From: an uncultured Clostridia bacterium
Lineage (GTDB): Bacteria; Bacillota; Clostridia; Christensenellales; UBA3700
Direction of reading: 5' to 3'
Length of the DNA stretch: 42,904 bases
NCBI GenBank assembly: GCA_947176265.1
Contig: CAMWQA010000006.1
Coordinates: 1 to 42,904, forward strand
Shown here one piece after another: positions 23,257-27,685 of the stretch. The notes under the pieces were generated by a model, which saw nothing but the letters and a program-made list of their open reading frames with translations, ran no database searches and was not told the origin of the DNA. The first letter of the stretch is position 1, and each line of letters begins with the position of its first letter. A program made the position numbers and the translations under genes.

Positions 23257-23340
23257 ATCGTCCTCGCAAAGTTTTTCTATATTATAACAGTTTTTGTACG
23301 TCTGCGCAATAATTAAATGTACAAGATTTAGGACATTTGG

Positions 23341-25051: not shown

Positions 25052-25930
25052 ATGAATATGCGTATGAAGAAATTTGCTTTGAGTATTATTTGTTTGGTAT
25101 TGGCAGTTGCGGCGTTGAGCGTAGGTATTTGCCGCGAGAAGTCTATGGATACGACGGTCACGCAGACGAGCGGAGAGGGATATTCGCAGACTTGCCTTGG
25201 CGACTTGACAATACTTATGTATCACAATACTTTAGCGAAAGGCAAGAAGCAAAGCGTATACTGCATTAATCAAGACAGTTTAAGAAAAGATTTTGAATAT
25301 CTCAAGACCAATGGATACAACGTGATAAGTTGCAAAAGTCTAATAGAATGCGTCGACAACGGAGCGCCTCTTCCAGACAAAGCCGTGATATTGACGTTTG
25401 ACGACGGCTATCTCAACAATATGACATACGCGCTGCCGCTGCTGGAAGAGTACGGATACAGCGGAGTATTTTCCGTCGTGGGCGACTATACCGCTTACGA
25501 CAAGAATGGAAAGGGCGGCGGAGACTTTATATACTTTGGTTGGGACGATATTGCAGAGGTGTCTAAAAATTCCAACGTTGAGATAGGTCTGCATTCCTAT
25601 TCTATGCACAACACCCGCCCAAGATTGGGAGTATCGCAACTCAAGAGCGAAAGCGACGAGATATATAAACAAGTCTTTGCAGACGATACGCAAAAACTCG
25701 TCGAGAAACTTGACGAGTTGGGAGTATCTTCAAATATTTACGCTTACCCTTACGGCAAGTACACCAAGATAAGCGAGAGCGTGCTAAAAGACAAGGGAGT
25801 AGTCATGACCTTGACTTGCAACGAGGGTATCAATCACATTTACGGCAGACGCAGTCTTTATCTTCTCAAGAGAATCAACAGAGACGCGACAAAAGGCGGA
25901 TTGGCAAGTATATTGAAAAGATATGAGTAA
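25052..25930 (+). CDS. Polysaccharide deacetylase family protein
   Basis: VILTFDDGYLNN, GLHSYSMH, YAYPYGKYTK. Confidence 0.9.
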   Translation: MNMRMKKFALSIICLVLAVAALSVGICREKSMDTTVTQTSGEGYSQTCLGDLTILMYHNTLAKGKKQSVYCINQDSLRKDFEYLKTNGYNVISCKSLIECVDNGAPLPDKAVILTFDDGYLNNMTYALPLLEEYGYSGVFSVVGDYTAYDKNGKGGGDFIYFGWDDIAEVSKNSNVEIGLHSYSMHNTRPRLGVSQLKSESDEIYKQVFADDTQKLVEKLDELGVSSNIYAYPYGKYTKISESVLKDKGVVMTLTCNEGINHIYGRRSLYLLKRINRDATKGGLASILKRYE

Positions 25931-26156
25931 AACGCTCATATCTTTTTAGTTATGGATAAGATGTATTTTGATTTTATTTGGGGGAGTATGGGGGTGGAGT
26001 ATAGGCTTGCTCGGTGTAATTTGCACAATAAGCAGATTTTTTATGTAGTGATACCTAACTAAAATACAAAGTAATAAAAACCCATAAAAAATACGTTATT
26101 TAAGCAAATAACACCTTCGCTCGCTTAGACGTAACTTCCGTTTTAAACGACATAAA

Positions 26157-26234
26157 AATTCTTCGACTCTGCTAACGCTACGCTCAGAATGACGTCAATC
26201 GGATTGAGATTTCTCCACTGCGGTCGAAATGACA
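26157..26234. repeat. Two interspersed TTCTTCGAC...CTCAGAATGAC / GATTTCTCC...GTCGAAATGAC repeats
   Basis: Same family as 23341-23720. Confidence 0.8.
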
Positions 26235-27380: not shown

Positions 27381-27458
27381 TAGATTTCTCCGCTATAATC
27401 GAAATGACATAATAATTTTTTAATCGGGGAGATTCTTCGACTACGCTCAGAATGACAA
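27381..27458. repeat. Interspersed CTCAGAATGAC-family repeats
   Basis: Same family as 23341-23720. Confidence 0.8.
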
Positions 27459-27566
27459 GTCCTCTGCGCGGACAGTTATATTTTTGCCTATGGCAAAAGT
27501 TATATTGCCACTGCGTGGCAGTTATATACGCCTTCGGCGAGTTATATCGTCGCTATGCGACGGTTA
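27459..27566. repeat. Hairpin array: five mini-hairpins separated by AGTTATAT
   Basis: GTCC/GGAC; TTTTGCC-TAT-GGCAAAA; TGCCAC-TGC-GTGGCA; CGCC-TTC-GGCG; CGTCGC-TAT-GCGACG with GTTATAT at 27475, 27499, 27521, 27541 and partial GTTA at 27563. Confidence 0.85.
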
Positions 27567-27587
27567 AGGATACTTTATTAAGATTAG

Positions 27588-27685
27588 ATTCTTCGACTGC
27601 GCTCAAACTCCGCTATGCTGCGTTTTCGTTCCGCTCAGAATGACATTAGGAGATGGGGGATTCTTCGACTGCGCTCAGAATGACA
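27588..27685. repeat. Interspersed CTCAGAATGAC-family repeats
   Basis: Two further copies. Confidence 0.8.

Follow-up and report, generated by a model that had tools for sequence, protein, structure and literature searches.

Mini-hairpin arrays with a constant GTTATAT spacer in a Clostridia genome and their link to IVP (PF05635) genes

The REP/REPIN elements associated with RAYT are dispersed extragenic palindromes at gene ends that may spread non-autonomously, and the attC sites of integrons are folded single-strand sites that accompany varied small genes. To our knowledge, the four-helix-bundle (IVP) genes have gone without an assigned function for 30 years. The IVSs of 23S rRNA genes with an S23p/IVP frame also contain inverted repeats and are suspected to be mobile, and for IVS/S23p the function is described as unknown and mobility as possible (PMC4990558). 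Furthermore, some cas loci are reported to include IVP genes (PMC3936711; PMC10910872), and PF05635 is reported to resemble Avd of diversity-generating retroelements (PMC10053308). A literature search, with most subscription papers outside its scope, found no description of hairpin arrays of the kind analyzed here.

The window, i.e., the entire stretch of 42,904 nucleotides from an uncultured Clostridia bacterium that was analyzed, contains at positions 27459-27566 five mini-hairpins with GTTATAT between them. The array is located between protein genes, outside 23S rRNA genes, and comprises the following features, listed together with an array-less relative from the same window:

27458..27605, + strand: duplicated unit of 148 bp; its counterpart on contig C1 (L003 1484-1631) shares 99.3% identity
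27459..27474, + strand: hairpin 1, GTCCTCTGCGCGGACA, imperfect 6-bp stem, loop TGC (sequence, fold)
27475..27481, + strand: spacer GTTATAT 1 (sequence match)
27482..27498, + strand: hairpin 2, TTTTGCC-TAT-GGCAAAA (sequence, fold)
27499..27505, + strand: spacer GTTATAT 2 (sequence match)
27506..27520, + strand: hairpin 3, TGCCAC-TGC-GTGGCA (sequence, fold)
27521..27527, + strand: spacer GTTATAT 3 (sequence match)
27528..27540, + strand: hairpin 4, A-CGCC-TTC-GGCG-A (sequence, fold)
27541..27547, + strand: spacer GTTATAT 4 (sequence match)
27548..27562, + strand: hairpin 5, CGTCGC-TAT-GCGACG, the end type that lacks a terminator (sequence, fold)
27563..27572, + strand: constant end motif GTTAAGGATA (GTTANGGATA) (sequence comparison)
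25916..25958, + strand: array-less relative, a hairpin followed by TTTTTA and GTTATGGATA

The four GTTATAT copies, at 27475, 27499, 27521 and 27541, are exactly where the first-pass annotation had placed them, and its description of the layout, a constant short spacer alternating with variable perfect hairpins, was right. The terminal "partial GTTA" of that annotation is in fact the start of the constant end motif GTTANGGATA, and its GTCC-N7-GGAC, hairpin 1 in the list above, also permits a reading with a TGC loop and a 6-bp stem in which one position is mismatched. GTTATAT as such is not rare in the window (11 copies found against 9.1 expected); what is odd about the array is the periodic placing of this word with palindromes, not its frequency. 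Folding of 27459-27566 as DNA yields z = -5.0 and -5.3 for the two strands, and folding as RNA yields z = -3.5 and -3.5, with no shuffle equal to the native sequence in either case. A search of the window against Rfam at gathering thresholds produced a single match, a tRNA, with no rRNA and no family on the array. No intrinsic terminator (a GC-rich hairpin plus a T run) was found in the window array, in agreement with the earlier statement that it is not a terminator cluster.

The array is not a one-off. The pattern GTTATAT-N8..22-GTTATAT-N8..22-GTTATAT has 35 matches in the 1.77-Mb genome compared to 0 for the reversed pattern, pairs of GTTATAT have 69 matches genome-wide against 11 in the control, and the 148-bp copy on contig C1 is 99.3% identical. 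The left flanks of the two 148-bp copies are unrelated, and their left boundary coincides with the foot of hairpin 1; the right end of the duplicate falls within a different repeat that is itself dispersed, GATTCTTCGACTGCGCTCAGAATGACA, and homologous recombination may therefore have contributed. Besides the arrays, a second type of dispersed repeat, GATTCTTCGACTNCGCTCAGAATGACA, occurs on the + strand at window positions 23340, 23507, 27431 and 27659 (with a related repeat at 26209) and, together with a ATTTCTCCGCTACGGTCGAAATGACA-type companion, in many intergenic regions of the genome as well as on both sides of the window array. In a survey of the genus, triple arrays are abundant only in this genome (G000, 35) and in G038 (11). 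A strict scan for three GTTATATT units across 246 genomes of the class matched only this genome and one simple repeat; thus, the exact motif is rare in the 246-genome sample, but the architecture is not.

Read in array orientation, the arrays of this genome follow common rules, namely, hairpins with GTTATAT (variants GTGATAT and GTGAGAT) between them, then an end hairpin of either the TAAAA...TTTTA terminator type or the CGTCGC type, and finally GTTANGGATA. Of the 99 units (82 distinct) in the arrays of this genome, 74 are paired throughout, from end to loop, whereas shuffling the 3' arms among units leaves on average 22 fully paired (maximum 31 in 200 trials), which bears out the observation that the arms are kept matched while the sequence varies. 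The accompanying claim that the stems share no primary sequence is wrong: they are drawn from a small vocabulary used again and again across the genome, all 53 of the 15-mers have C-G as their closing pair, and the 3-nt loops share a rule, with T first in 71 of 83, then any nucleotide, then C or T in 80 of 83. On the opposite strand, the T-N-pyrimidine loop with its closing pair reads C-RNA-G, largely of the GNA type, a triloop of high stability in DNA. At L176 and L191, nearly identical hairpin units follow one another (TGTCCC..GGGACA and TGCCGC..GCGGCA), which suggests that units were tandemly duplicated not long ago.

A scan of species genomes for such arrays listed matches mostly in MAGs of gut and rumen Clostridia, with some simple repeats elsewhere. 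Among the matches listed, many loci continue past a centre motif into a second, oppositely directed array, in some cases followed by a reading frame. This frame belongs to PF05635/TIGR02436, the four-helix-bundle or 23S rRNA IVP family of Pfam and NCBIfam (the structure of a relative, 2rld, has been solved). The IVP gene is present in 12 of the 80 array loci that were fetched among the matches listed, and in ten of those 12, no more than about 250 bp separate it from the spacers. In the reverse search, IVP genes from 246 genomes of the class and from the family were picked irrespective of arrays; here, mini-hairpins upstream of IVP number 2.76 per 400 bp, while distant windows have 0.96 (p = 6e-15) and shuffled sequences 0.52. 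The highest-scoring PF05635 loci form a separate, array-less clade, which served as an internal contrast. In the class Clostridia, a gene co-occurring with the arrays is IVP (PF05635). Within the family, the association is weak: an IVP above the cut-off is present in 3 of the 4 genomes with arrays and in 7 of the other 42 (p ~ 0.03); G038 has its 11 triple matches yet no IVP match.

The two-armed layout, as seen in the class Clostridia, consists of about four hairpins with the forward spacer, a centre, about three hairpins with the inverted spacer, and IVP, the array being directly upstream of the IVP gene. Other spacers found in this layout are GCTAAAT, RTGAAAT, ATGAATT, GTGAAGW, RTGATGT, RYGATAT and a looser AATGAAT. 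In many elements, as judged by eye on 47 of them, the centre repeats the stem of the first hairpin next to the inverted spacer, the two changing in step; in several others (e.g., L117, L170, L317 and L324), the first listed unit has no centre match. In a 59-row IVP tree, a quick build with several weak forks, nine labels (eight spacer types and "none", obtained from k-mer counts and then grouped by hand) require 8 changes, which is the minimum, compared to 39.6 on average in shuffles. For the 37 rows with coded hosts, spacers require 7 changes and host families 26, which indicates that array and gene pass together from host to host; linkage by itself would produce the agreement between spacer and tree, and binding is not implied. 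The two-armed structure, the distribution of spacers by IVP lineage and the 148-bp duplicate of the window copy are all absent from the first-pass annotation.

Array-bearing IVP loci tend to follow RNA genes: a tRNA or tmRNA in the sense direction is found no more than 520 bp upstream in 17 of 42 such loci, in 0 of 14 array-less IVPs and in 2 of 230 control windows. A gut scaffold labelled as phage shows the same order as the elements (tRNA, terminator, array, IVP). The frame that follows IVP varies even between copies 98% identical over 637 bp; these genes may be cargo or simply host genes. Homologous-looking SAM methyltransferases are located directly after IVPs of two spacer types (L276 2346-2951 and L135 5915-6511). 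L303 contains an intact tRNA-Met (168-244) and a second copy of the tRNA-Met 3' end at 2714-2732, about 2.5 kb downstream of the intact gene and just before the IVP element; this duplication could reflect an integration event, though one that involved DNA lying upstream of the IVP element and not the element itself, and it is not counted as evidence here. On a Monoglobus plasmid (L361), IVP lies between hsdS and hsdR with inverted ATTAGGAATGAG-like repeats on both sides, and on a Treponema plasmid (L362), it is flanked by GGAAAGATGAAAG-like direct repeats that are not hairpins. A reverse transcriptase (PF00078) is absent from 7 of the 12 IVP- or array-bearing genomes checked (G000 has two), and its role as a required partner is accordingly not supported; nor was a template/variable repeat, as in diversity-generating retroelements, noticed in passing.

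In this genome, PF05635 is represented by two overlapping pieces at C1:66515-66816, so its sole IVP gene is frameshifted. This gene sits between two inverted GTTATAT arrays and, in the 59-row tree, falls on a long branch within the GTTATAT clade. Solo arrays end at GTTNNGG, and so does the left half of complete elements. Judging by these shared motifs, the window array looks like the solo left half of a two-armed element, and our preferred reading, which we hold to be right on balance, is that it is the solo, probably non-autonomous half of an IVP-carrying mobile element. The earlier idea of a mobile hairpin substrate is thereby partly upheld, since the dispersal of the arrays, their polymorphism and their linkage to IVP genes point that way. 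Comparison of relatives, which had been suggested for detecting unit gain or loss, shows differences in both unit number and array presence: at the obg junction, hairpins number five in this genome, two in G037 and none in G038, G028, G036, G029 and G030, at 97-98% obg protein identity, and the difference in presence could stem from loss or from gain. Because the single IVP gene is frameshifted, the arrays of this genome are probably relics or host-adopted; it is likely that the roughly 35 arrays are now immobile and either tolerated or used at transcript ends.

A complete element runs from a host gene or tRNA through a terminator, about four hairpins with the forward spacer, a centre repeating the first stem and about three hairpins with the inverted spacer to the IVP gene (PF05635) and, often, a variable further gene. 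A multimer of IVP might recognize spacer-hairpin arrays in folded form, be it ssDNA, a cruciform or RNA, in which case the code would be structure plus spacer and not stem sequence. The elements presumably move, and solo arrays may once have spread in trans. We know of no nuclease or recombinase activity of IVP, and neither excision, nor a circle, nor clean insertion of a whole element was observed. More tentatively still, the elements could constitute a distinct class of prokaryotic mobile elements. Their cis-acting ends would be arrays of sequence-variable mini-hairpins with a lineage-specific 7-bp spacer, read by a small multimeric four-helix-bundle protein; they would settle 3' of tRNA or other genes, carry additional genes and leave solo arrays as remnants; if so, the S23p/IVP family would gain its missing role.

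An alternative that we consider unlikely, albeit the best of those that follow, is a host RNA function, whereby the arrays would be 3'-UTR structures that end or stabilize transcripts in the sense orientation and block antisense transcription when inverted in operons, a mobile origin belonging to the past and the arrays being domesticated. Of the 23 sense arrays just past a stop codon, 20 include a TTTTA terminator hairpin, 11 of the 12 inverted arrays between co-directional genes are without one, and there are no arrays between divergent genes in the set from this genome; this pattern favours some interaction with transcription. For 7 of 23 array-adjacent genes, the end of the coding sequence, from the last codons through the stop, doubles as the left arm of the first hairpin, compared to 1 of 84 others (p = 6e-5), and the sole case among the 84 is the window gene ending at 25930, itself then followed by GTTATGGATA. 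This gene (25052-25930) provides with its last codons and stop the left arm of the 25916..25958 hairpin, and its ortholog in G038 has an array at that place; orthologous genes in G038 likewise have an array at the corresponding place, with different stems, in line with a host function. Against it, most relatives are array-free at the corresponding junctions, the array of complete elements, located after the terminator and before the IVP gene, is apparently outside the main transcripts, the spacer tracks the IVP protein and not the host, and the window array itself is without an intrinsic terminator.

Long perfect inverted repeats over the stop codon, with the left arm formed by the last codons of the gene and the stop, are seen at 25916-25958 and at L015, L063, L076, L078, L079, L080 and L110, and in L107 versus L089, which share an orthologous gene, both arms of the inverted repeat differ in step. 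Similar genes ending in ...REDQIERY..(L)LKEQRAMK.K, each followed by an array with different stems, form another recurrent context (L064, L013, L014; L052-L060), with three such genes in G000 and several in G038.

Improbable as an account of the whole is a neutral by-product of tandem duplication of short units combined with template-switch correction of quasi-palindromes, a process that would keep the arms matched with neither selection nor a dedicated protein. Such a process is compatible with the near-identical unit runs at L176 and L191 and with the difference in unit number between this genome and G037 at the obg junction. It does not account for the link to IVP, the opposed orientation of the two arms, the invariant C-G closing pair, the T-N-Y loop or the position on the tRNA side.

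That the arrays are REP/BIME elements mobilized by a RAYT (Y1) transposase is very improbable. They are indeed dispersed extragenic palindromes at gene ends, but PF01797 (Y1_Tnp) has 0 matches in G000 and G038 (both MAGs, 93-97% complete), so the earlier exclusion of REP holds up with respect to RAYT; no single stem sequence is conserved, and instead of a conserved palindrome with a GTAG/CGTC tag, 82 of 99 units are distinct with the spacer constant. A CRISPR-like or integron-like array, suggested by the alternation of a constant short repeat with variable units, by the varied genes after IVP in many elements and by the IVP genes in cas loci (PMC3936711), is hardly credible given that long direct repeats with unique non-palindromic spacers are replaced here by a 7-bp repeat and palindromic units, without exception, from a small recurring vocabulary, and that Rfam has no match on the array, so that the original dismissal of CRISPR and attC holds as regards layout.

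With IVP/S23p, long annotated as a family of unknown function that is possibly mobile, now tied to a definable nucleic-acid partner, namely matched-arm arrays with a spacer that tracks the protein tree, its function can be probed in assays of binding and mobility. The dispersal of arrays over gene ends is likewise relevant to the annotation of terminators and operons in gut and rumen Clostridia. Compared with REP/REPIN elements, the constant part here is the spacer and not the stem, and the array-rich genomes have no Y1 transposase. Compared with integron attC sites, the arrays consist of many hairpins, and the GTTATAT spacer does not appear to fit the attC core consensus. The closest counterpart is the 23S rRNA IVS with an S23p/IVP frame, e.g., that of Coxiella (PMC4990558): the complete elements encode the same family, PF05635/TIGR02436, although the window array itself is without an IVP gene and the genome's copy is frameshifted. 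Unlike these IVSs, the elements described here lie beside tRNA or protein genes and not inside rRNA, and they are composed of opposed arrays of multiple mini-hairpins with a lineage-specific spacer, accompanied by solo arrays that carry no gene.
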